From Chitinophaga sancti (GTDB taxonomy: Bacteria > Bacteroidota > Bacteroidia > Chitinophagales > Chitinophagaceae): 64,000 bases of DNA. The translations under genes were made by a program, and so were the position numbers. Below the pieces are notes generated by a model that was not told the DNA's origin, did no database searches, and was given only the letters and a program-made list of their open reading frames with translations. Positions 9,463 to 55,132 of the stretch are shown in pieces. Each line of letters opens with the position of its first letter. Position 1 is the stretch's first letter. The stretch lies in assembly GCF_034424315.1 (NCBI RefSeq), contig NZ_CP139972.1, positions 868,001-932,000 of the forward strand, in the 5' to 3' direction.

Positions 9463-9565
9463 ATCAAATGGATTTGTCGATGATGGAAATTAAGCGAGAA
9501 TCTTTAATTATTAAAAATAATTATTTATTTTGCCGCGGTTATATATATAAAATTGTTGTTAGCTC

Positions 9566-12500
9566 ATGAGATTTGTTAAGCAAACCGTGCTTTACTTCAA
9601 GGAGGGGACATCTGACAAAACTTACGAAATAGACCTATGTGAAACTGGCCCCGGACAATACATTGTGAACTTCCGCTATGGCAAGCGGGGAGCTGCACTT
9701 AAAGAAGGTAGTAAAACAGCCACCCCCGTTACACTGGTGGAGGCTACCGCTATTTTCGATGCATTGGAAAAGGAAAAACGTAGCAAGGGATATACCGGCG
9801 AAGGCGATGGTGTAGCCACCGTAGCTTATACCCCTATCTCGGTAGAGGATGTCGCTGACCCCGCCCACAAAGCAATCCTGAAAAGGCTGGATGATGCCAT
9901 GACCGGCAAACAATCCTTTAAGACAAAATGGTCGACATCCCGCGTGATCTGGGCTGCCGGCGAATTGAAAATTCGTGCGGCCGCTCCTGTTATCCTGCGC
10001 CTGATTGAGAAAGGCAATGCCATGCAGCGTTATGCTTGTATCTGGGCATTGGGCCGATGTGGTGACCCCGCTGCCGTTTCATTAGTCAGCTCCTATATAG
10101 ATAATAGCACTTACCCGCAATACCTGCGGCAAATGGCTGCAAACGCTGTGTTGCAACTCCTGTCGGGCGAGGAACGTACTGCTTTCATTACCCGTTCGCT
10201 ACACGCCCTGCCACCAGAGTTCCAGGCAGCCATCACTGCGCAGGATATGCAGGCGCTCACACAACTGCTGGATCAGCGGGTGATGAAACTCACCGAGCCT
10301 ACTTACCAGTTGCTGGAAGACCTGTATATCGTTGCAGCTGATAATATGCCTGTCAGACAACTGCTGCATAGTTTATTCGCTGCCTTACCTTTACGCCCAT
10401 CGTATTTCCGGCATATCCGTCACCTTTATAAGCAGGCGGAAATGCGTGATGATCATGGGTTGACGGCGCTCTTCTCCGGGCGTTTTGAAAGGGAAACGCA
10501 TATGTTCAGCACCAATGGTAAACCACCTGCTGAACTGAAGAAGCCATTGAGCAGACTAGCTTATTCCAATCGCACACGTCGCCATTTAAGGGCCAGGACA
10601 CTGCGCCGCCTGCAGGCATATGGTATGCGTGGAGAAATGGAATATGTAAAACTCGCCACTGCACTCCTGTTACAATATGATGGGTCTTTGTCAATGTACA
10701 AAAGAGCGGCTTTCAGCCGGACTGTATACGGATATGATACCACCACAAGGCGCTATACTTCCCGTGAGATCCGCTATCCTGCTAATTCAGAGGCGGTTTT
10801 CCTGAACTATATATTAAGAGGCAATAACCCTGATTTAGTATTAAAAACCCAGGGAAGCCGCTGGGAATATATAGATCCCGAAGCCAACCAGGATGAAGCA
10901 AAGCCAAAGCAGGAGGAGCCGCCTAAGAAAGAAGGTTTCCTGAATCAACTGGGCAATCTTTTCAAAGCACCTAAGAAGGAAGAATCCGGGCAGCCAAAAG
11001 AATCCACTGAAAAAGTGGTAGTGGATGAGCCACACAGCGATATTCCTTTCAGGGCGCTCTGGCACCAGTTACCACAGGCATTCATCCAGCTGCTCATCAG
11101 TGGCCGCATGGAAGACGTACATGCCTTTGCGTATGCAGAACTGCAGGCGAGTCCGCAGTTTGAAGCCATCAAAGAAAAAATCGATGCCAATGTGATTAGT
11201 GGCCTGCTCATTAATCCTTATTCCATTCCGCAGCAATTCGGGCTGGCACTGGCAAAAGAAAAATATAATCCTGCCTCCCCTTCTCTTCAGCTCTTTGTAG
11301 CGCTGATGAATAGTCCGCTGAAAGAAGCCAGGGAACTGGGTATTGAATGGATCAGGCAACACCTGGAATTCTGTTTCCAGCATACCGAATTCGTATCAGC
11401 ACTCATCCTGGCTGTCTATGACGATGTAAGACAGATTGCCGTAGATCGTCTCAGCACTACACCGCTGCCGCTCGATAAGTGTCGCGTGATAATAGGCAGC
11501 GTGGTGGGCGTATTGCTGACACCCCGGGGATCTGATGCTGCCGTATATAAAATACTGACTGCTGGTTGCCGCATATTGGAACAGTACATGGTGACTGCCC
11601 TGGAAGAAGTAGATTTCAAGATCGTAGAAGATTTACTGAAATCCGGTATTCCACCGGCAGAAGCATTTGGTGTGCGATTGTTATTATTGAAGAAACAACC
11701 GCTGCAGCAGATCTCTGACGAAATCATTGCAGGCATCCTTGAAAATGCTTATCAGCCGGTAAGAGAAGGTGGTATTGCGATCCTGGCCAGTTTGACGAAT
11801 GAAGAACTGCTGGCGCGTCCTGCCTTGTTATTCCAAACCTGTATTGCTTCGTATACAGATGTACGTCAGGGTGTTCGCCCTGTACTGGCAAGGCTCCAGA
11901 AGGAATACAAAGACCTTGCGATATGGCTGGTGAATGAACTGGTGCCTTTGCTCATGCGAAAGGAAACAGCTGCAGGTTTGCATAGTGACCTCGCCGATAT
12001 ACTGAGCAATGAACTGGTAGACCACTTGCATGATATTGACAAGGCCACTGCCTTACGACTGACTTATTCCAATTACCCAGCTACCCAGGCATTTGGTGTG
12101 CTGGTGCTGGAAAAATATATTCCACCTGAAGCATTAAGCCTCAAACAGGTGATTGCTACCGGTAATCATGAATTGCTGGAAGTACGTGAATGGTGCTGGC
12201 GTTTCTTCGAACAACAGTTGCCGCGTATCCGTTACGAAAGGGATGATGCAATCGGTTTGCTGGATGCGAAATGGGATGATACCCGCACTTTTGCTATACA
12301 GTTTTTCCGGACTCACTTCAGGGATGAAGACTGGTCGCCGGAAACACTCGTTGCCATAGCTGACAGCGTAAACCCAATCGTACAGGCATTTGGCAGGGAA
12401 TTGCTGACACGTTTCTTTAAAGAAGCAGATGGTCTCAGTTACCTGTTAAAACTTAGTCAGCATCCGGGTGTAGCGATGCAAACTTTTGCGACCAATTACC

Positions 12501-12805
12501 TGGCGCAGTATGCAGCGGGTCAGCTGGATCGCCTGCAGGAACTGGAGTTTTATTTCCGTTCAGTACTGAGCAGGGTCAATAAAGCGAGGGTAGCGAAAGA
12601 ACGCATCTTTGCATTCCTGGAACAGGAATCCCTGAAATCAACAGCAGCAGCGCAATACATAGCAGGTATCATCGCACATATCTCTGCAACGGTGGCTATT
12701 GGCGACAAAGCCCGTTGTATCCAGATCATGCGTAAGATACACCTGCAATACCCGGATATTACGCTGCCGGTTCAATTCATCGCTATTCCTGAGCATTCAT
12801 CTTAA
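9566..12805 (+). CDS. Retron accessory protein: WGR domain + HEAT/ARM repeats
   Basis: A 1079-residue protein. Residues 3-78 are a WGR-type domain (LYFKEGTSDKTYEIDL … NFRYGKRGA … TLVEATAIFDALEKEK), a fold that binds nucleic acid ends in PARP-like proteins. From about residue 95 to the end come helical HEAT/ARM repeats (e.g. RYACIWALGRCGDPAAVSLV). They are broken near 430-495 by a Lys/Glu/Pro-rich linker (KPKQEEPPKKEG … KAPKKEESGQPK). No catalytic motif is visible, so I take it as a scaffold or sensor. It starts the ARM-SWIM-ncRNA-RT cluster and lies 11 nt before the SWIM gene. The pair resembles E. coli MolR/YehI (WGR) and YehQ (SWIM). In retron surveys a HEAT/ARM protein of this kind marks, as I recall, type XIII. 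Confidence 0.85.
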   Translation: MRFVKQTVLYFKEGTSDKTYEIDLCETGPGQYIVNFRYGKRGAALKEGSKTATPVTLVEATAIFDALEKEKRSKGYTGEGDGVATVAYTPISVEDVADPAHKAILKRLDDAMTGKQSFKTKWSTSRVIWAAGELKIRAAAPVILRLIEKGNAMQRYACIWALGRCGDPAAVSLVSSYIDNSTYPQYLRQMAANAVLQLLSGEERTAFITRSLHALPPEFQAAITAQDMQALTQLLDQRVMKLTEPTYQLLEDLYIVAADNMPVRQLLHSLFAALPLRPSYFRHIRHLYKQAEMRDDHGLTALFSGRFERETHMFSTNGKPPAELKKPLSRLAYSNRTRRHLRARTLRRLQAYGMRGEMEYVKLATALLLQYDGSLSMYKRAAFSRTVYGYDTTTRRYTSREIRYPANSEAVFLNYILRGNNPDLVLKTQGSRWEYIDPEANQDEAKPKQEEPPKKEGFLNQLGNLFKAPKKEESGQPKESTEKVVVDEPHSDIPFRALWHQLPQAFIQLLISGRMEDVHAFAYAELQASPQFEAIKEKIDANVISGLLINPYSIPQQFGLALAKEKYNPASPSLQLFVALMNSPLKEARELGIEWIRQHLEFCFQHTEFVSALILAVYDDVRQIAVDRLSTTPLPLDKCRVIIGSVVGVLLTPRGSDAAVYKILTAGCRILEQYMVTALEEVDFKIVEDLLKSGIPPAEAFGVRLLLLKKQPLQQISDEIIAGILENAYQPVREGGIAILASLTNEELLARPALLFQTCIASYTDVRQGVRPVLARLQKEYKDLAIWLVNELVPLLMRKETAAGLHSDLADILSNELVDHLHDIDKATALRLTYSNYPATQAFGVLVLEKYIPPEALSLKQVIATGNHELLEVREWCWRFFEQQLPRIRYERDDAIGLLDAKWDDTRTFAIQFFRTHFRDEDWSPETLVAIADSVNPIVQAFGRELLTRFFKEADGLSYLLKLSQHPGVAMQTFATNYLAQYAAGQLDRLQELEFYFRSVLSRVNKARVAKERIFAFLEQESLKSTAAAQYIAGIIAHISATVAIGDKARCIQIMRKIHLQYPDITLPVQFIAIPEHSS

Positions 12806-12816
12806 ACCCTGATCAC

Positions 12817-14463
12817 ATGTTATTCAATTATAGATATAGCGGCAGTACGCAGGTATATAGCAATGCTACATCAGCAGGAATTTCATTTGCACCTGATACA
12901 AGACGTGAGCCTACTTTCTTTAATGGAAAGTTGCATAAAAAGCTGGCGTTCAGGGAAGCAATTTCTGCGTTGCATGATGTAGTGGTGTCAGATCTGCGAT
13001 TCAAGCCAAAAGATAAAACCGAGTATAAGGAATGGGCCGCGCAGCAGGAAGCTGTATGGCTGGCGCAATATATGGGTCAGTATGATGCCAAAGCCAGTCA
13101 GGCGAAGATTAAACAGCTCCGTGAAGAACTGAATACTGTCAACATAGAGCGTGACAAGGTGATGGCGCCTTATTACACGGCACGTCGTAAATACTTCGAT
13201 TACCTGTACCAAAAAGACAAAGATGCCTGGTTTGTGCTGGACCCCGTGATCAGCGTGCATCCTGATGAGATCTTTTTCGAGTGCTTTAGCCAGGATGAAT
13301 CTGCTTACGGCAAACTAAGTGCGAGTTACAATGTATTTAAAGAGGTCAACGAATTTGAATGTGGTACTACCAACATTGATTATTCAGCGAACCTGTATAA
13401 CGAGTTCCAGAAGATCCGTGACTATAAGGAAACGACCTTCACGGTAGATCCTTCCGGTTTCGCCGTGCAAACGACAAAGGAGGAGCTCTTCAAAGAAGTA
13501 AAGATCGATTTGCCGGATAGTTGGGTCAGGGGATTCCTGCAGGTGAGTTCAGCAATGACCTTACCCGCTGCCAGCTTTGATCTGCACCCGATGGATGTAT
13601 ATAATTTCTGTGCACAGCTGCGCCGCTTCAAGGAAAAGAAAGGACCGCGTTCTATTCGTTTTATATTGGAACCCGGGCAACCTGTGAAAGCGATCTTTGA
13701 TCCCTGGGGTACGGAGATCGTGTGTGCGAGATCGGTATATACCGGTGCACAGCGCAGGGAGATCCGGATCTGGGGCCGCCGCCGTTTGTTAATATTGGAA
13801 AGACTGATCCCGGTAGCAAAGAAATTTACCGTTCACCTGACGGGGAATGGCCTGCCTTCCTTCTACATTGCGGATCTGGGCGATATGCAGTTCACACTGG
13901 GATTGAGTGGCTGGACGGCGAATGACTGGTCTCGTGCCGGGCAGTTTGACCTGATGGCGCCGAGAGGAACCGTGGACGATGCTACCAAGTTAATGATCTA
14001 TGGCGATCTGCAACAGCACTGGTTTGGTACACCGGAGCAGATAGCTGCACGTACCGGTACTACGAAAGCTGCAGTAATGGCGGCATTGGGGATCTATACA
14101 CAGGCGGGGATAGCGATTTATGATCTGCATTCAGGTTTTTATCGTTTACGTGAACTGAGCCGCGATCCATTACCACTGGACCAGTTACGCTTTTCAAATC
14201 CTGCGGAAGCCGCCGCTACCAGGCTTGTAGGCAGTGTGAAGTTCACTGCACAGGAAGTGCCGGGAGTAGGTGTACAACTGGAAGGTACGATCGGATCAAG
14301 AAATCGTTCATACAAACCCGTTATAGTAATTGATGCAGATGAAAGGATGGCTTCAGCACATTGTGACTGTAATCATTACCAGATGAATAAGTTACATAAA
14401 GGTCCGTGCGAACATATGCTGGCACTGCGTATGGCGTATGAACAGGAAAAACAAAAAGTATAA
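12817..14463 (+). CDS. Retron accessory protein: winged-helix + SWIM zinc finger
   Basis: A 548-residue protein. Residues about 1-390 are of unrecognised fold and include a charged helical segment (KQLREELNTVNIERDKV, about 100-116). Residues about 394-453 look like a winged helix (TPEQIAARTGTTKAAVMAALGIYTQAG … GFYRLRE). The C-terminus holds a SWIM finger with C516, C518, C531 and H533 (CDC…CEHMLALRMA), matching CxCx(n)CxH. SWIM domains bind DNA or mediate protein contact. The combination 'WH + SWIM' next to an ARM protein and a retron RT is the effector set I associate with type XIII retrons. It probably shares an mRNA with the ARM gene; the retron RNA lies 111 nt downstream. Confidence 0.85.
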   Translation: MLFNYRYSGSTQVYSNATSAGISFAPDTRREPTFFNGKLHKKLAFREAISALHDVVVSDLRFKPKDKTEYKEWAAQQEAVWLAQYMGQYDAKASQAKIKQLREELNTVNIERDKVMAPYYTARRKYFDYLYQKDKDAWFVLDPVISVHPDEIFFECFSQDESAYGKLSASYNVFKEVNEFECGTTNIDYSANLYNEFQKIRDYKETTFTVDPSGFAVQTTKEELFKEVKIDLPDSWVRGFLQVSSAMTLPAASFDLHPMDVYNFCAQLRRFKEKKGPRSIRFILEPGQPVKAIFDPWGTEIVCARSVYTGAQRREIRIWGRRRLLILERLIPVAKKFTVHLTGNGLPSFYIADLGDMQFTLGLSGWTANDWSRAGQFDLMAPRGTVDDATKLMIYGDLQQHWFGTPEQIAARTGTTKAAVMAALGIYTQAGIAIYDLHSGFYRLRELSRDPLPLDQLRFSNPAEAAATRLVGSVKFTAQEVPGVGVQLEGTIGSRNRSYKPVIVIDADERMASAHCDCNHYQMNKLHKGPCEHMLALRMAYEQEKQKV

Positions 14464-14504
14464 AAAAAAATAGCAGGGAATAGCAGAATATTGAAGAAAA
14501 GAAT

Positions 14505-14512
14505 TATCTTTG
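14505..14512 (+). promoter_or_regulatory. Candidate -7 box for the retron RNA
   Basis: TATCTTTG matches the Bacteroidota -7 consensus TAnnTTTG. A start 5-8 nt downstream would give a leader of about 55 nt before the a1 repeat at 14575, so the retron RNA and RT could be transcribed apart from the two upstream genes. No convincing -33 TTG is found at the expected 19-21 nt spacing, which lowers confidence. Confidence 0.4.
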
Positions 14513-14574
14513 ATCCCGTAATGATAGAGAGTTATTCATCTCCAAAAATGAAATCTCTTTCAATAAAAAGTTCT

Positions 14575-14807
14575 TTATAAAGAGGAAATGATTGCACTTG
14601 CGCCCGTAAGGGACGAATGATGTTTCGTCATTCAGGTAACATGACTATACATGCTTCACTAAATGCAATCTTTACTTTGGGAGGGGCGTACTATAGTGCA
14701 TTTTACAGTACTCGCCCCTGGGGCCATAAAATGCACTATAGTACGCCCCTCCCTGGAGTTGATTGATTTAGTCAAAGGCTTGCACGAAGGCCATTTCCTC
14801 TTTATAA
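14575..14807 (+). ncRNA. Retron msr-msd RNA
   Basis: All parts of a retron template can be seen. a1 (14575-14590, TTATAAAGAGGAAATG) and a2 (14792-14807) are exact 16-nt reverse complements. Just 3' of a1 the msr region has a CCC-GTAA-GGG hairpin (14603-14612) and an 8-bp hairpin with a TTT loop (14615-14633, GAATGATG/CGTCATTC with one G-T pair). The msd is a perfect 27-bp stem (14679-14705 with 14727-14753) and a 21-nt loop. G14590 or G14594 is a candidate branch guanosine at the a1/msr junction. Length is about 233 nt. It sits directly upstream of a reverse transcriptase with the retron-specific motifs, which it should prime and template. Exact cDNA ends cannot be read from sequence alone. 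Confidence 0.9.
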
Positions 14808-14933
14808 TTTACGATTGCCGATCAGTAGTTTTTACATCTACATGGATGGCTTTTTTACATCTTCACTTCCCTTTTCTCAAATTTCTGCTACTCCCCTGCT
14901 TCCATTCATTCATCATTTTATCTGAACTGGAAT

Positions 14934-16430
14934 ATGTCAGCAGGTTTGACCCGTCAACAATTATACGATCAGATTCGGGCTTCCTCTAAGGAAGAAGTAA
15001 TTCTCGAAGGAATGCAACGCCTCGGCTTCTGGGCAAAGAGCGAAATCATGCCCAGTCTTCCGGAAATGATCATTCAAAAGGAAGGTGAACTCCGCAGAGA
15101 ATTAAACCAACTCCTCAACGAACAGGGCCGATACAGAAATAAACAGCAGGTCCTTAACGACATGCGAAAAGAACGCATGGCTGCCGCCAAGGCAAAACGT
15201 GCGGAAACAAAAAAACGGAATGAAGAGAAACGCCTGCAAAGAGCGGCTGCATGGGCTGAAGAGAAAAAGAAAACCATCCTCTACCTCGGCGAAGACGTTT
15301 CTGCAGGCTTAAATAAAACGACCTCTAATACCGAACAACTACAGAAATTCGGTTTACCTGTATTGAATGATGCCGTTCAACTGGCAGCAGCAATGGGGCT
15401 GAGCCTCGGCAAACTCCGCTTCCTGGCATTTGACAGGAAAGTAGGTACCGTATCCCATTACAAACGCTTTTACCTGCCTAAAAAGTCAGGCGGCCGCAGG
15501 CTGATCTCTGCGCCCATGCCACAACTCAAAGCGGCACAGTACTGGGTACTGGAGCATATCTTGTACAAGGTGCCAAACAGTGAAGCCGCTCATGGTTTCG
15601 TTCCCGGCAAATCTATCGTTACTAATGCGCGTAATCACGTCGGCCAGGACGTGGTGATCAATATCGACCTCAAAGATTTTTTCCCGACTATTGAATATAA
15701 ACGTGTCAAAGGGCTTTTTGTCAAGCTGGGTTACAGTGAACAGGTTGCCACCATCCTTGGCCTGCTCTGTACCGAACCCGAAGTAGACCAGGTAGCCCTG
15801 GATGGCAAGGAATACTTTGTCGCAAATACCCCCCGGCACCTGCCGCAGGGTGCACCTGGGAGTCCGGCCATCACGAACCTGATTTGTTACGGCCTGGATA
15901 AACGATTTGAAGGCCTGGCGAAGAAATTCGGTTATACCTACTCCCGGTACGCAGATGATATGACCTTCTCCACAAAAGGCGAAGCCGCCGACAAGATCGG
16001 GCAATTACTCTGGTCCGTGAAACAGGTGGTGAAGGAAGAAGGTTTCCACATGCACCCAGATAAACTGAAGGTGATGCGGAAAGGTGATAAAAGAGAGGTG
16101 ACCGGGATCGTGGTGAATGAGAAACTGAGCCTGGACAGGGAAACCCTCCGCAAATTCAGGGCCTTGCTGCACCAGATTGAAAAAACCGGCCTGGCAAACA
16201 AGCAATGGGGTAATGGAAACATTATCAGTAGCATAGAGGGCTTTGCGAACTATGTGGCAATGGTAAAACCAGAAGCCGGCAGGCAGCTGAAGGATAAGAT
16301 TAAGTTATTGATGAACAGGGATGATCTTAAGGCCCAGGCAAGGGCGATGATGACTGGTGCGCCCGTTCCTGCTGCTAAGGAGGATAATTCCCCTAAAAAG
16401 GAAGATGGAAATTGGTGGAATGTGGTATAA
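14934..16430 (+). CDS. ret: Retron reverse transcriptase (type XIII-like)
   Basis: A 498-residue RT. The N-terminal part (1-140) is an extension with a long basic/coiled-coil stretch (about 60-115, rich in K, R, E, A). The RT core follows: IDLKDFF with D245 (motif A), QGAPGSP at 305-311, and the catalytic YADD at 339-342. The retron hallmarks are present: NARNH at 231-235 (the NAxxH of region X) and VTG at 389-391 (region Y, in thumb/RNA recognition). All three catalytic aspartates are intact. It should copy the adjacent msr-msd RNA into branched msDNA. It starts 126 nt after the a2 repeat, behind a pyrimidine-rich leader. It is the last gene of the cluster and is followed by a strong terminator. 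Confidence 0.93.
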   Translation: MSAGLTRQQLYDQIRASSKEEVILEGMQRLGFWAKSEIMPSLPEMIIQKEGELRRELNQLLNEQGRYRNKQQVLNDMRKERMAAAKAKRAETKKRNEEKRLQRAAAWAEEKKKTILYLGEDVSAGLNKTTSNTEQLQKFGLPVLNDAVQLAAAMGLSLGKLRFLAFDRKVGTVSHYKRFYLPKKSGGRRLISAPMPQLKAAQYWVLEHILYKVPNSEAAHGFVPGKSIVTNARNHVGQDVVINIDLKDFFPTIEYKRVKGLFVKLGYSEQVATILGLLCTEPEVDQVALDGKEYFVANTPRHLPQGAPGSPAITNLICYGLDKRFEGLAKKFGYTYSRYADDMTFSTKGEAADKIGQLLWSVKQVVKEEGFHMHPDKLKVMRKGDKREVTGIVVNEKLSLDRETLRKFRALLHQIEKTGLANKQWGNGNIISSIEGFANYVAMVKPEAGRQLKDKIKLLMNRDDLKAQARAMMTGAPVPAAKEDNSPKKEDGNWWNVV

Positions 16431-16451
16431 ACCCTGAAGAATGATACTTTT

Positions 16452-16483
16452 AAGCGCTTTTGCACAGGCAAAAGCGCTTTTTT
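16452..16483 (+). terminator. Intrinsic terminator of the retron operon
   Basis: A perfect 12-bp stem (AAGCGCTTTTGC, 16452-16463, with 16468-16479), ACAG loop, and a T-run to 16483. It begins 22 nt after the RT stop. Confidence 0.9.
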
Positions 16484-35998: not shown

Positions 35999-36074
35999 AT
36001 AGATCATTCAGCATGACGAGCATGATATACTTGTATAACCCGAAGCTTTTCACCCGAAAGCGCTGAATGGATCT
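35999..36074 (-). promoter_or_regulatory. Inverted repeat between riboswitch and first gene (possible expression platform)
   Basis: ATAGATCATTCAGC (35999-36012) can pair with GCTGAATGGATCTAT (36062-36076) with one bulged base. The long stem begins at the 3' edge of the riboswitch aptamer, where an expression platform is expected. Its mode (termination or start-codon masking) cannot be told; no T-run follows it on the minus strand. Confidence 0.5.
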
Positions 36075-36075
36075 A

Positions 36076-36250
36076 TTGCATACTGGCAGGTCTTCTGGCT
36101 CCCTGAAATTCCGGCGGCCTTCCCATCCTTGCTGGACAGTGGCATTGAGATGAGCCGGAAACAATACTCAGGTTACAGCTACGGGGATAGCTCCGGTTTT
36201 GCACCGGATTCCCTTTTAAGCTTACACATGATAAGCACCAAATGCGGTGC
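36076..36250 (-). promoter_or_regulatory. Cobalamin riboswitch
   Basis: On the minus strand the conserved core elements occur in order: GGTGC; AAGGGAATCCGGTGC; AACCGGAGCTATCCCCG; TAGCTGTAACC; GCCACTGTCC…GGATGGGAAGGCC; and the B12 box region GAGCCAGAAGACCTGCC. This is the adenosylcobalamin/B12 aptamer pattern. It controls the four-gene BtuG-like/BtuB operon starting at 35959, presumably shutting it off when B12 is plentiful. Confidence 0.93.
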
Positions 36251-36281
36251 AAACCTACGTCAAGGGGGTGGAATAACCAAA

Positions 36282-50788: not shown

Positions 50789-53700
50789 ATGCTAAATAAA
50801 ATAATTAGCTTTTCTGTAAAGAATAAGCTGATCATTGGGCTATTTGTTATTGCCCTCGTCGGCTGGGGTACCTACGAAGTAACCCGCTTACCTATTGATG
50901 CAGTACCGGATATTACGGACAACCAGGTACAGGTGATCACCGTATCTCCTGCCCTGGGCGCACCGGATGTAGAACGCCTCATTACCTTCCCTATCGAACA
51001 GTCCTGTAGTAATATACCAGGATTGAAACAACTCCGGAGTTTTTCCCGCTTTGGTCTTTCTCTCGTTACAGTCGTGTTCAATGATGAAACAGATATTTAC
51101 TGGGCACGTCAACAGATTGCAGAACGCCTGGCACAGGTGCAGGATGCGATTCCCAATGGTATAGGAAAGCCTGAAATGGCCCCTGTGACCACCGGGCTTG
51201 GCGAGATCTACCAGTACGTAGTAAGGCCTAAAAAAGGCTATGAAGGGAAATACACCGCTATGGACCTCCGTACCCTGCAGGACTGGACCGTACGCCGCCT
51301 GTTATTAGGTACCCCGGGAGTGGCGGATGTGAGCAGTTTTGGGGGGGTACTGAAGCAATATGAAATCGCTGTACGCCCCGAACAACTCAAAGCATATGGC
51401 ATTACCATCGCAGAGGTTTTTGACGCACTGGAGAAAAATAACCAGAATACCGGTGGTGCCTATATTGAAAAAGGCCCTACCGTGTTGTATATCCGAAGTG
51501 AAGGGCTGACCGGCAGTCTCGCCGATATTGAAAAGATCGTGGTGAAGAACCTCAATAATGGCGTGCCCCTGCTGATCCGGGATGTGGCTGAAGTACACCT
51601 GGGTGCAGCCACCCGCTATGGTGCCATGTGTTTTAACCAGGATGGTGAAGTAGCTGGTGCCGTGGTGATGATGCTGAAGGGTGAAAACTCTTCTGCAGTA
51701 ATTAAAAGAGTGAAAGCAAAAGTTGCCGAAATTCAGAAAGCATTGCCCGAAGGTGTTGTGATTGAGCCTTTCCTGGATCGTACCAAAATGGTGAACAATG
51801 CCATCCAAACGGTGGAGCAAAACTTAATGGAAGGTGCGCTGATCGTGGTTTTTGTATTGGTCTTTTTCCTCGGCAATTTCAGGGCAGGGCTCATTGTTTC
51901 TTCTGTAATTCCCCTTTCCATGCTGTTCGCTATTATCCTGATGAACAAGTTTGGCGTAGGCGGTAACCTGATGAGCCTTGGTGCGATAGATTTTGGCCTG
52001 ATCGTAGATGGTACGGTGATCGTGGTAGAAGCGATCCTGCACCGGTTTTCGCATTCCAAACATTTCAGGAATACCGGTCTTATTACCCAGGAGCAGATGG
52101 ATAAAGAAGTGAACACAAGCACCGGTCTGATGATCCGCTCTGCTGTATTCAGCCAGATCATTATCCTCATCGTATATTTCCCGATCCTTTCCTTACAGGG
52201 CATTGAAGGCAAGATGTTCAAGCCGATGGCCCTGACAGTTGCCTTTGCCATCTTAGGCGCATTCCTGTTGTCTATCACCTATGTGCCGATGATGAGTGCC
52301 TTGTGCCTGAATAAAAAGATCTCTCATAAACTTTCTCTGGCCGATAAGATGATGATGCGCCTGGAGCGGCTCTATCAACCGGTGCTAAGTCGTGTCATGA
52401 ACTTTCCGCGTACCATTATCGCAGGTATCTGTGTATTGATGATACTGGCCGTGATCGTGCTGGGGCAGATGGGTGGTGAGTTCATTCCCCAGCTGGAAGA
52501 AGGTGACTTTGCCGTGGAAACCCGCCTGCTCACGGGGAGTAACCTGAAGACGACCATTAAGGCCACTCAACAGGCTTCCGGTATCTTACTGAAGCAATTT
52601 CCTGAAGTACAGAAAGTGGTGACCAAGATAGGTAGTGCGGAAATCCCTACAGATCCGATGCCTCTGGAGGCTGCGGACATGATGGTGATCCTGAAACCCA
52701 AAAAGGAATGGACCTCTGCAAAATCATTCCCTGAGTTATCGCAAAAGATGACCGAAGCGCTTTCGGTGGTACCGGGTATCAGCGTAGGTTTCCAGTTCCC
52801 TGTACAGATGCGTTTCAATGAGTTGATGACAGGTGCCCGACAGGATGTAGTGTGTAAGATCTTCGGGGAGGACCTGGATTCACTGGCATTTTATGCGAAT
52901 AAACTGGGAGACGTGATCCGTACTGTAAAAGGTGCGGTGAACCTCTATGTAGAGAGTGTAACCGGTATGCCGCAGATCGTGATCAATTACAACCGTGATG
53001 CGATGGCCCGTTATGGATTGAATGTAAGTGATATTAACAGGGTCGTGAATACAGCCTTTGCCGGTCAGAGTGCCGGTGTTGTGTATGAAGGGGAGAAACG
53101 GTTTGATATGGTGGTAAGACTGGCTGGTGAAGCCAGGCAAAACATCTCTGACGTGGAAAACCTGTTAGTGCCCGCTGCAAATGGAATCCAGATCCCTCTC
53201 TACCAGGTAGCAGAGATCAAAGAGATCGAAGGCCCTAACCAGATCCAGCGTGAAAATACCAGGAGAAGGATCATTGTTGGTTTCAACGTGAACGGCCGTG
53301 ATGTGCAGACCATCGTACAGGAACTGCAACAGAAGGTAGCTGCGCAGGTGAAACTGCCTTTGGGATATTCTATTGTATATGGCGGTGCTTTTGACAACCT
53401 TACCGGCGCTAAACAACGTTTATCTATCGTAGTACCGATCGCGTTATTACTGATCTTCCTTTTGTTGTATTTCGCATTTTCTTCTATCAAGCAGGGCCTG
53501 CTTATCTACTCGGCTATACCCTTGTCTGCTATCGGTGGCATCTTTGCCATGGGGCTGCGTGGTATGCCATTCAGTATCTCTGCAGGCGTAGGTTTTATTG
53601 CGCTCTTCGGGGTCGCTGTATTGAACGGGATCCTGCTGGTGAATGAATTTAACCGGTTGAAGAAGGACGGCTGGCATGATGTACGGCGTATTGTGATCCA

Positions 53701-55132
53701 TGCTACCAAGTCCAAACTACGTGCGGTATTAATGACGGCACTGGTACCCTCACTGGGCTTTATTCCCATGGCCATCAGTACCGGCGCCGGTGCAGAAGTA
53801 CAGAAACCACTGGCCACCGTGGTAATTGGTGGTTTGATCGTATCTACTATGTTGACACTTTTTGTATTACCCGTATTATATATCCTTTTTGAGAAAGGAT
53901 TCCGCTTCTATAAGAAAGGGGCTGCGGTCGCTATTTTGTTATTACTCGGTGCTGGTTTGCATGCGCAGGACAAAATAAACCTGCAGCAATCCCTGGATAT
54001 GGCGGTGAAAAATAACCTGCGTATTAAAGCTGCAAAATCAGGCGAGGACTATTATGCCATGCTGCGCAAAAGTAGTTTTAACCCTGATAAAATGCAGATC
54101 GGCGCAGAGTACGGCCATATTAATAGTAAGGCAAATGACAACAGGTTCACTATCTCCCAGGGAATTGAGTTCCCCACGGTGTATAAGCGGCAGCGTGACC
54201 TGGGAACAGCGTATTGGCAGATTAGCCAGGCCCATACCCGGAATGCGGAGAATGAACTGAAAGCAAGGGTGAAGTCTACATTCTATTTGTTGCTGGCCCT
54301 GCAGGAAAAGAAACGCCTGCTGGTAGAAGCTGATAGTATCTATGCTGCCTTTGTAACGAAAGCTACCCTTCGCCTGAAAACAGGTGATACCGATGCGCTG
54401 GAAAAAGCCACTGCCGAAAACCAGCGTTTACAGATAGCTGCACAACTGACTATGCTGAACACGGATTATGCGGCAGCGCTTCAATTATTTGGTATCTTAT
54501 TGAATAGTAATACACCCCTGGCTCCCGTTGCAGACAGCCTGGTGTATCACCCGGCTACACTGCCGGAAAATTCAGGCAATGCTCCGCTCCTTCAATTACA
54601 ACAGAAGCAACTGGAAGCTACCAGTGCAGCATACAAACTGGAGAAAAGCAAAATGCTGCCTTCACTGAATATCGGTTATGCAAACGGTAGCATTATCGGA
54701 TACCAGAACATAGGCAGCGGGGAACAATTCTATGGAAGTGGTACCCGCTTCTCCGCAGTGAGTGCAGGTGTCGGTATTCCCCTCTTCGGTGGTGCACAGC
54801 GTGCGCGGATCAGGGCCGGTAATATCCTCATTCAGCAACAGCAGCAGGAACTGGCTGCGAGTAAACAACAACTGGATCAGGAACTGAGCAGGGCATTGAA
54901 TAATTACACCCGTTACCAGGAATTGTTACAAACTTACAAGACGGTACAATTACCCAATGCCGGCATCCTCATCGAAGGAGCTAATAAACGGCTCAACAGC
55001 GGCGAAACCAGTTACCTGGAATGGACGATTCTGATCAACCAGGCGATTGAAACCCGCAGCAATTACTATAATCTTATCATAGCACTGAACGATGTTGCTT
55101 TTGACATCGAAAAAATCAGCGGAATTAACTAA
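50789..55132 (+). CDS. czcA: Heavy-metal RND pump CzcA fused to an outer-membrane channel domain
   Basis: A 1447-residue fusion. Residues 1 to about 1035 are a full HME-RND pump: 12 membrane helices, porter domains (VTTGLGEIYQYVV, GGAYIEKGPTVLYIRSEG), and the proton-relay/metal motif DFGLIVDGTVIVVEA in helix 4, typical of Czc/Cus pumps. After the last helix comes a hydrophobic stretch AAVAILLLLGAGLHAQ (about 1044-1060, signal-peptide-like). Then follow ~390 residues of TolC/CzcC type (INLQQSLDMAVKNNLRIKAAKSG … GTRFSAVSAGVGIPLFGGAQRARI). The adaptor gene follows 18 nt later. Metal specificity (Cu/Ag, or Co/Zn/Cd) cannot be told from sequence alone. Confidence 0.92.
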   Translation: MLNKIISFSVKNKLIIGLFVIALVGWGTYEVTRLPIDAVPDITDNQVQVITVSPALGAPDVERLITFPIEQSCSNIPGLKQLRSFSRFGLSLVTVVFNDETDIYWARQQIAERLAQVQDAIPNGIGKPEMAPVTTGLGEIYQYVVRPKKGYEGKYTAMDLRTLQDWTVRRLLLGTPGVADVSSFGGVLKQYEIAVRPEQLKAYGITIAEVFDALEKNNQNTGGAYIEKGPTVLYIRSEGLTGSLADIEKIVVKNLNNGVPLLIRDVAEVHLGAATRYGAMCFNQDGEVAGAVVMMLKGENSSAVIKRVKAKVAEIQKALPEGVVIEPFLDRTKMVNNAIQTVEQNLMEGALIVVFVLVFFLGNFRAGLIVSSVIPLSMLFAIILMNKFGVGGNLMSLGAIDFGLIVDGTVIVVEAILHRFSHSKHFRNTGLITQEQMDKEVNTSTGLMIRSAVFSQIIILIVYFPILSLQGIEGKMFKPMALTVAFAILGAFLLSITYVPMMSALCLNKKISHKLSLADKMMMRLERLYQPVLSRVMNFPRTIIAGICVLMILAVIVLGQMGGEFIPQLEEGDFAVETRLLTGSNLKTTIKATQQASGILLKQFPEVQKVVTKIGSAEIPTDPMPLEAADMMVILKPKKEWTSAKSFPELSQKMTEALSVVPGISVGFQFPVQMRFNELMTGARQDVVCKIFGEDLDSLAFYANKLGDVIRTVKGAVNLYVESVTGMPQIVINYNRDAMARYGLNVSDINRVVNTAFAGQSAGVVYEGEKRFDMVVRLAGEARQNISDVENLLVPAANGIQIPLYQVAEIKEIEGPNQIQRENTRRRIIVGFNVNGRDVQTIVQELQQKVAAQVKLPLGYSIVYGGAFDNLTGAKQRLSIVVPIALLLIFLLLYFAFSSIKQGLLIYSAIPLSAIGGIFAMGLRGMPFSISAGVGFIALFGVAVLNGILLVNEFNRLKKDGWHDVRRIVIHATKSKLRAVLMTALVPSLGFIPMAISTGAGAEVQKPLATVVIGGLIVSTMLTLFVLPVLYILFEKGFRFYKKGAAVAILLLLGAGLHAQDKINLQQSLDMAVKNNLRIKAAKSGEDYYAMLRKSSFNPDKMQIGAEYGHINSKANDNRFTISQGIEFPTVYKRQRDLGTAYWQISQAHTRNAENELKARVKSTFYLLLALQEKKRLLVEADSIYAAFVTKATLRLKTGDTDALEKATAENQRLQIAAQLTMLNTDYAAALQLFGILLNSNTPLAPVADSLVYHPATLPENSGNAPLLQLQQKQLEATSAAYKLEKSKMLPSLNIGYANGSIIGYQNIGSGEQFYGSGTRFSAVSAGVGIPLFGGAQRARIRAGNILIQQQQQELAASKQQLDQELSRALNNYTRYQELLQTYKTVQLPNAGILIEGANKRLNSGETSYLEWTILINQAIETRSNYYNLIIALNDVAFDIEKISGIN

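Follow-up and report, generated by a model that had tools for sequence, protein, structure and literature searches.

Introduction

Restraint of an effector, followed by its release, is the general model of retron action given in PMC12548924, and PMC13405049 describes restraint and release for a type IX retron. In Retron-Eco1 (Ec86), the reverse transcriptase (RT) begins copying at a C close to the priming G, and in the studied retrons a conserved AGC surrounds that G; Retron-Nex1 (Ne160) has repeated msr/msd sequences without a nearby RT and so is a precedent for multiplied or distant RNAs (PMC6868368). Here we analyze a type XIII retron cluster at positions 9566-16483 of a 64,000-nt stretch of DNA (the window) from Chitinophaga sancti, i.e. 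positions 868,001-932,000 of NZ_CP139972.1 (GCF_034424315.1), a genome assembled as one 8.4-Mb contig. The cluster encodes a WGR-HEAT/ARM protein, a SWIM zinc-finger protein, an RNA that would template multicopy single-stranded DNA (msDNA), and an RT. The type XIII class was reportedly defined in the retron classification of Mestre et al. in 2020.

Type XIII is a class for which we found no paper on function, and no mechanism, in the open-licence literature (most subscription-journal papers lie beyond that scope), and which has no recognizable effector enzyme. For this known but mechanistically uncharacterized class, the present analysis describes the RNA family and its predicted msDNA ends, the chromosomal sites that copies share, stray copies of the msd, RNAs in tandem and RTs at a distance. 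A defined RNA family, predicted msDNA ends, a single-copy locus in a cultivable genus, natural strains with an empty site and msDNA-like footprints together make the function directly testable, and should the footprints prove sound, genomes alone could show how far a retron's msDNA extends.

Composition of the cluster

Judged from its sequence, the cluster is a complete, intact type XIII retron. The three genes and the RNA are on the + strand, and all of the frames are open. The features are as follows.

9566..12805, + strand: WGR-HEAT/ARM effector gene, 1079 aa, PADLOC WGR_XIII (open reading frame (ORF), Pfam, PADLOC)
12817..14463, + strand: SWIM zinc-finger effector gene, 548 aa, PADLOC SWIM_XIII (ORF, PADLOC, SWIM motif)
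14574..14807, + strand: msr-msd RNA, 234 nt, between the SWIM and RT genes (folding, covariation, covariance model)
14934..16430, + strand: retron RT gene, 498 aa, with an N-terminal extension ahead of the RT domain, PADLOC RT_XIII (ORF, Pfam, PADLOC)
16407..16427, + strand: C-terminal WW tail of the RT, GNWWNVV, after a variable linker, a candidate docking motif (conservation)
16452..16479, + strand: intrinsic-terminator-like hairpin, 12 bp plus U tail (fold)

The gene content is the same as that of type XIII in PADLOC-DB v2 (WGR_XIII, HEAT-ARM_XIII, SWIM_XIII, RT_XIII), and the models were matched at nearly full length: WGR_XIII scored 1195.5 bits over model positions 1-972 of 973, SWIM_XIII 793.2 bits over 1-507 of 509, and RT_XIII 646.9 bits, the second-best RT model reaching 321.3. 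A first-pass annotation, made from the letters without database searches, had named type XIII as the likely class and proposed a profile search of the accessory proteins as a check; the assignment is borne out, as all three proteins are best matched by the type XIII models. Pfam identified WGR (23.1 bits, cut-off 22) and HEAT_2 in the first protein and RVT_1 in the RT, and the Pfam SWIM score of the second protein, 19.2 bits, was 0.4 below the cut-off of 19.6. The RT translation contains NARNH, YADD and VTG motifs. The cluster therefore has each of the components by which type XIII is recognized, i.e. an RT with YADD, NAxxH and VTG motifs, a WGR/HEAT-ARM gene, a SWIM gene and an RNA with a1/a2 repeats adjoining the RT, and none of its features excludes membership. 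The annotation had also described the accessory genes, a foldable RNA and a motif-bearing RT as intact and closed by a terminator, and the ORFs, motifs and folding z scores agree with this description. The closing hairpin (16452-16479) has a 12-bp stem followed by a U tail, with a folding energy of -18.3 kcal/mol and a z score of -4.1; it was absent from the list given by a pattern scan for + strand terminators, though folding supports it, and the downstream boundary at 16483 is consistent with it.

Linkage of the effector and RT genes

Among 79 genomes of the genus, 44 have full-length WGR_XIII, SWIM_XIII and RT_XIII genes adjacent to one another, in one copy each and with the RNA, and 35 are without them. 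Every full-length SWIM_XIII gene (44/44) adjoins WGR_XIII and RT_XIII, in genomes that have the RNA; the arrangement that the first-pass annotation had named as speaking against a retron, i.e. effector genes lying mostly without RT and RNA, is thus not the one seen in the genus. One of the 35, G052, has a remnant at a contig edge (L074, contig 260, 1-2389), consisting of the WGR end and a frame in which the opening SWIM codons run into the RT; the RNA is missing, and the remnant may reflect either decay or an assembly error.

We surveyed GTDB through the loci of the best 80 of 542 SWIM relatives, of which 27 were from this genus and 53 from outside it. An RT was present within the retrieved flank at 68 of these 80 loci (62 downstream, 6 upstream). 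The linkage also extends beyond the genus, with an RT flanking 41 of the 53 loci; seven of the 12 misses are at contig ends and the other five are cyanobacterial loci that have no RT in the 4.9 kb or more available on either side, but whose genomes contain one elsewhere. A type XIII RT was found somewhere in the genome in all 17 genomes examined. WGR was absent from 6 of the 80 loci, four of which had 7 kb of upstream sequence. At the level of the order, 11 of 198 genomes contain SWIM_XIII (13 matches at E 1e-100) and all 11 also contain RT_XIII, the two lying on one contig within 7 kb in 10 of the 11.

The msr-msd RNA

The RNA between the SWIM and RT genes has the following parts.

14575..14590, + strand: a1 arm, perfect 16-nt complement to 14792-14807
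14600, + strand: predicted priming (branch) guanosine, the G in CTTGC, immediately inside the a1/a2 side (from motif conservation)
14615..14633, + strand: conserved msr hairpin GAATGATGTTTCGTCATTC (helix 4, 100% paired in the genus alignment)
14654..14785, + strand: predicted msd template, 132 nt, starting at C14785 and ending near 14654 (from the CGAAG motif and stray-copy boundaries)
14679..14753, + strand: long msd hairpin with 27-bp arms, 14679-14705 and 14727-14753 (folding, compensatory changes)
14792..14807, + strand: a2 arm, perfect 16-bp pairing with a1

The region folds far better than its shuffled versions, with z scores of -7.9 for 14560-14770 (0/200 shuffles as good) and -9.5 for 14464-14933 (0/100). 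In an alignment of the 44 genus copies, 98.9% of cells pair, compared with 39.5-45.9% in controls in which the structure was slid, and changes on both sides are seen at 24 of 79 pairs. An alignment of 54 RNAs from outside the genus, which was fitted to the model, gave 89.3% paired cells versus 35-42% in slid controls and both-side changes at 67 of 79 pairs. In this second alignment all 22 pairs of the long hairpin (helix 10) vary, and 96.9% of cells remain paired; a hairpin that varies in sequence yet stays paired fits recognition by shape.

Two covariance models were used to search for the RNA: R1, built from the 44 genus RNAs, and R2, built from 16 non-genus RNAs aligned with R1, which therefore contains no genus sequence and inherits the R1 structure. 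In the window, R2 matched exactly 14574-14807 (E 2.4e-51), the next match having an E of 8.7. R1 found the RNA at 49 of the 53 non-genus loci, all at E 3.3e-6 or better, across Bacteroidota, Myxococcota, Acidobacteriota and Cyanobacteria; it gave no match at the remaining four (L137, L139, L142, L161), nor at seven genus loci regarded as those of SWIM or WGR paralogues. In whole-genome searches the RNA was found in 10/17 genomes with R1 and in 20/20 with R2, and on a 2.8-Mb Methylobacterium replicon R2 also finds it, lying between the SWIM and RT genes of a complete cluster.

Two short motifs flank the inner side of the a1/a2 stem, CTTGC just inside a1 in 92 of 98 family RNAs and CGAAG just ahead of a2 in 94 of 98. 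Following the pattern of Eco1, in which the first base copied is a C close to the priming G, we predict priming at G14600 and C14785 as the first template base. The RNA resembles that of Eco1 in its a1/a2 stem, its priming G and a template beginning at C, and differs from it in that the predicted priming site is UGC rather than the AGC conserved in the studied retrons (PMC6868368). In 45 of the 91 RNAs scored, the stem extends outward beyond the CTT/AAG of the motif itself for one or more further pairs. We dropped the presence of three pairs outside the priming G in 91/91 RNAs as evidence, because these pairs belong to the motifs by which the site was found. Two other candidate elements were also rejected. 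A promoter for the RNA itself (TAnnTTTG) is present here but occurs at 1 of 44 genus loci, against 2.1 expected by shuffling. The heptamer TTAGCTC at 9559-9565, immediately 5' of the WGR start codon, is shared by 35 of 43 genus loci; it was dropped as a target of the RNA, being absent from all of the non-genus loci listed.

Stray msd copies

We searched the genus genomes by BLAST with one 133-nt genus msd as the query, so that copies of msr were outside its reach. Minus-strand mirror matches of the palindromic hairpin were set aside, here as in the covariance-model searches, and boundaries were judged by alignment to the whole SWIM-RT spacer of the same genome and by reading of the flanks. The query matched exactly the 44 retron-bearing genomes, and in five of them it revealed a total of 14 stray msd copies away from the cluster (G013 2, G015 4, G016 1, G017 3, G069 4). 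No stray copy was found in the 35 retron-less genomes (5/44 vs 0/35), nor in the C. sancti genome itself, for which the query msd came from another species. A search with the full-length model recovered one of the 14. The copies are 79-95% alike to the msd of their own genome, and the flanks of separate copies are unrelated, apart from two repeats distant from the copies.

The ends of the copies lie close to those predicted for the msDNA. In eight of the 14, the copy stops at the predicted first template base or up to 4 nt ahead of it and does not enter the GAAG that follows. A probability computed for uniformly distributed ends takes no account of search bias, and we give it no weight. A ninth, L263, is ambiguous, as it aligns with gaps to 14 nt beyond the template start, yet its letters depart from the retron right after CAC. 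L257 stops 20 nt before the template start and L267 stops 12 nt before it. Three copies (L254, L260, L264) contain the opposite end and begin within about 4 nt of CTTCAC, L254 starting 1 nt before CTTCAC in one alignment and running 22 nt past it in a lenient one. A Nannocystis genome has a 121-nt copy, 89% alike, which begins at CTTCAC and stops about 10 nt before the template start. Repeats resembling msDNA were reportedly described in Nannocystis exedens in 1997. Nannocystis genomes contain the type XIII loci L149 and L153.

Copies of a cDNA would look like this, sharing the end next to the priming site and having lost varying lengths at the other. On this pattern the stray copies suggest, indirectly, that type XIII retrons really produce msDNA, and because their ends lie near the predicted start and stop, we place the predicted msDNA extent at about 14654-14785. 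The copies may also stem from duplication at the DNA level, or from an older family of repeats that gave rise to the msd itself.

Tandem RNAs, distant RTs and additional genes

In Calothrix, which was assembled as one 8.95-Mb contig, the RT is at 3.05 Mb and the WGR-SWIM-RNA group at 1.86 Mb, i.e. 1.2 Mb apart, and no RNA, WGR or SWIM gene lies within about 9 kb of the RT. Calothrix is the only genome with a distant RT in which RT and effectors are on one contig. At other loci several RNAs stand in tandem before a single RT: four at L123, three at L116 (with a weak fourth), three at L155 and two at L121. L119 has two RNAs and its contig ends before any RT. The Calothrix separation and the three to four tandem RNAs before one RT would fit a single RT that acts on several RNAs, in trans as well.

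Some loci contain extra genes, encoding WGR-beta-propeller, DUF4034/TPR, transglutaminase, scramblase-like, NYN and RNase III proteins. An additional gene of about 480 aa stands between WGR-HEAT and SWIM at L115, L117, L127, L128, L129 and L135 (Spirosoma, Emticicia and Runella-type); it encodes a WGR-beta-propeller protein in L115 and was judged by size and position at the others. The cyanobacterial loci L143 and L152 have RNase III-like genes between SWIM and RT, with NYN also in L143, and L160 has genes of similar size, judged by size alone, in its SWIM-RT interval.

Chromosomal sites in the genus

Chitinophaga are soil bacteria. Within the genus, 25 of the 44 retron copies lie between a gene that we take to be ychF and a block containing what is presumably metX, both names coming from our reading of the sequences. 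Another 17, the C. sancti copy among them, have a hybrid histidine kinase gene downstream (identified by Pfam at the C. sancti locus), and two are in other contexts. The ychF-metX distance is 10.2-12.5 kb in the 25 retron-bearing genomes. In the 32 assessable retron-less genomes, i.e. those with both genes on one contig, it is 3.0-3.6 kb in 26, where the shared site is thus short and empty, and 5.5-13.6 kb in six. Among the remaining 19 copies there are 14 on the same contig as ychF; all but one of the 14 are at a distance of 121-415 kb from that gene, the C. sancti copy at 121 kb. The pattern, read here with no species tree behind it, looks like that of an old resident with few sites, followed by rearrangement and loss. 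Four flanking proteins were scanned with Pfam, and none has a domain typical of mobile elements.

Taken with the stray copies and the multiplied RNAs, these sites fit a view of type XIII retrons as long-resident elements whose msDNA would be made and occasionally captured by the chromosome, whose RNA-effector cassette could be separated from the RT or multiplied, and in which one RT could serve several RNAs, also in trans; we would accept this view about as readily as doubt it.

The effector proteins and the RT

WGR was detected in 12 of the 13 WGR-HEAT family members scanned and HEAT_2 in 11, and across phyla this protein is most conserved at its WGR end and at residues ~900-1020 and least at 421-480. 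The SWIM protein is strongly conserved, with CxC...GPCxH at its C-terminal end, and the SWIM motif was found in all nine family members scanned (E up to 1).

Searched by sequence against solved structures, the RT was matched best by the RT of Retron Ec86 (7v9x, E 9.5e-63). Unlike Retron-Eco1, the C. sancti RT has an extended N-terminus and a WW-ended C-terminus, and Retron-Eco1 is said to use a different effector. The C-terminus consists of WW plus 1-3 residues in 106 of the 120 RT relatives listed out of 4503. Among the RTs of retron loci a WW-type end, under a slightly wider rule, occurs in 54 of 73, and in 0 of 9 cyanobacterial RTs. The WW tail is a candidate docking peptide for the effectors.

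A pair of genes without an RT may be a relative of the retron effector pair. It consists of a SWIM gene and a DUF6493/DUF7824/DUF7825 gene (L075, L076, L251); its shorter, SWIM partner is homologous to the retron SWIM protein along most of its length in a single comparison (25% identity over 417 positions, E 9e-15). The large partner could not be aligned to the WGR-HEAT protein (hhalign probability 7) and, unlike the retron, loci L075-L078 have no adjoining RT match and no msr-msd RNA. An ancestry of the effector pair in MoxR-vWA systems was considered and rejected: no MoxR or vWA domain was found in the seven cluster and flanking proteins or the ten paralogue-locus proteins scanned, an eLife 2020 paper contains no occurrence of WGR or SWIM, and the DUF6493 partner cannot be aligned to WGR-HEAT.

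Discussion

Our best guess at the mechanism is that RT-msDNA restrains a WGR-HEAT/SWIM effector until phage infection releases it. It is the best guess because published retrons work in this way, the polarity, toxicity and trigger being inferred, and we give it about an even chance. On this scheme the RT would bind the RNA, prime on the 2'-OH of G14600 and copy from C14785 to ~14654, giving a branched msDNA of ~132 nt that is mostly one hairpin. The resulting RT-msr-msDNA particle would bind the WGR-HEAT and SWIM proteins, possibly through the WW tail, and would keep the pair inactive, in the manner of other retrons. Alteration of the msDNA or the RT by a phage enzyme would then free the pair, which might stop growth by acting on nucleic acid with its WGR and SWIM modules and without any known nuclease domain. 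The cluster that is kept together, the conserved RNA structure and the ends of the stray msd copies support this scheme. The first-pass annotation had proposed msDNA as a possible bait or regulator for the two proteins, with a mode of action that would be new.

A number of results weigh against it. The open-licence literature contained no type XIII experiment on msDNA, toxicity or phage protection. As the first-pass annotation had remarked, no nuclease or toxin motif is recognizable: at the level of sequence, Pfam shows no catalytic family, nuclease or toxin domain in either effector or in the distant members scanned. Against solved structures, compared by sequence, SWIM had no match better than E 0.35 and WGR-HEAT matched only HEAT-repeat proteins, nearly all of them artificial, although an enzyme fold hidden from sequence search may be present. 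In the RNA, helices 5, 6, 9 and 12 pair in only 62-72% of the non-genus alignment, and the measure of further pair types was not above that of shuffles (264/500 for the genus, 417/500 for the non-genus alignment). Within the genus the retron behaves as a resident chromosomal element, unlike many mobile defense islands, and a search of 50,697 phage records gave no relative of the SWIM protein, nor did a pattern scan of viral contigs. The RT profile did match RTs in viral contigs, but none of the best 80 of 114 matches exceeded 34% identity.

The msDNA might instead be a scaffold or positive cofactor that the effectors need, so that a complex assembled on RT-msDNA attacks invader or host nucleic acid. 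WGR and SWIM are both said to be nucleic-acid-binding kinds of domain, the long hairpin is conserved by pairing and not by sequence, and the distance of the Calothrix RT from its effector genes and RNA makes a diffusible particle plausible. We nevertheless regard such activation as unlikely, since restraint and release is the stated general retron model (PMC12548924). The resident sites and the absence from phage records also leave room for a role other than defense, in which the retron in this genus would use msDNA for a chromosomal function such as gene regulation or chromosome or colony-level behavior. The single copy per genome, the 25 of 44 copies at one site with 17 more in a second shared context, and the 13 of 14 further ychF-contig copies within 121-415 kb of putative ychF would all fit this, as would the lack of mobile-element domains in the four flanking proteins scanned and of SWIM relatives among phage records, and the related SWIM protein that adjoins a DUF6493 protein without an RT. 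We think it rather improbable all the same, because a patchy element is a dispensable one (35 of 79 genomes have no intact copy, and 26 of 32 assessable genomes have the short interval) and because the RT is homologous to retron RTs, which are said to have anti-phage roles. That the cluster is a decayed or inert remnant is very improbable: the fused SWIM-RT frame without RNA in G052 indicates that decay may occur, but the C. sancti cluster has three open frames and intact catalytic motifs, and the pairing of its RNA is preserved by double changes in relatives. Of these explanations we retain restraint and release as the working one.

Other observations

The window also contains a cobalamin riboswitch on the - strand (36067-36257, 113.7 bits). 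At 50789-55132 a single frame of 1447 aa carries both AcrB-type pump and outer-membrane efflux protein domains, which are usually encoded by separate genes. Elsewhere in the C. sancti genome there are ten more weak, scattered RT_XIII matches in frames of 432-451 aa, nine of them with an identical score, which are perhaps a multiplied group II-type RT.

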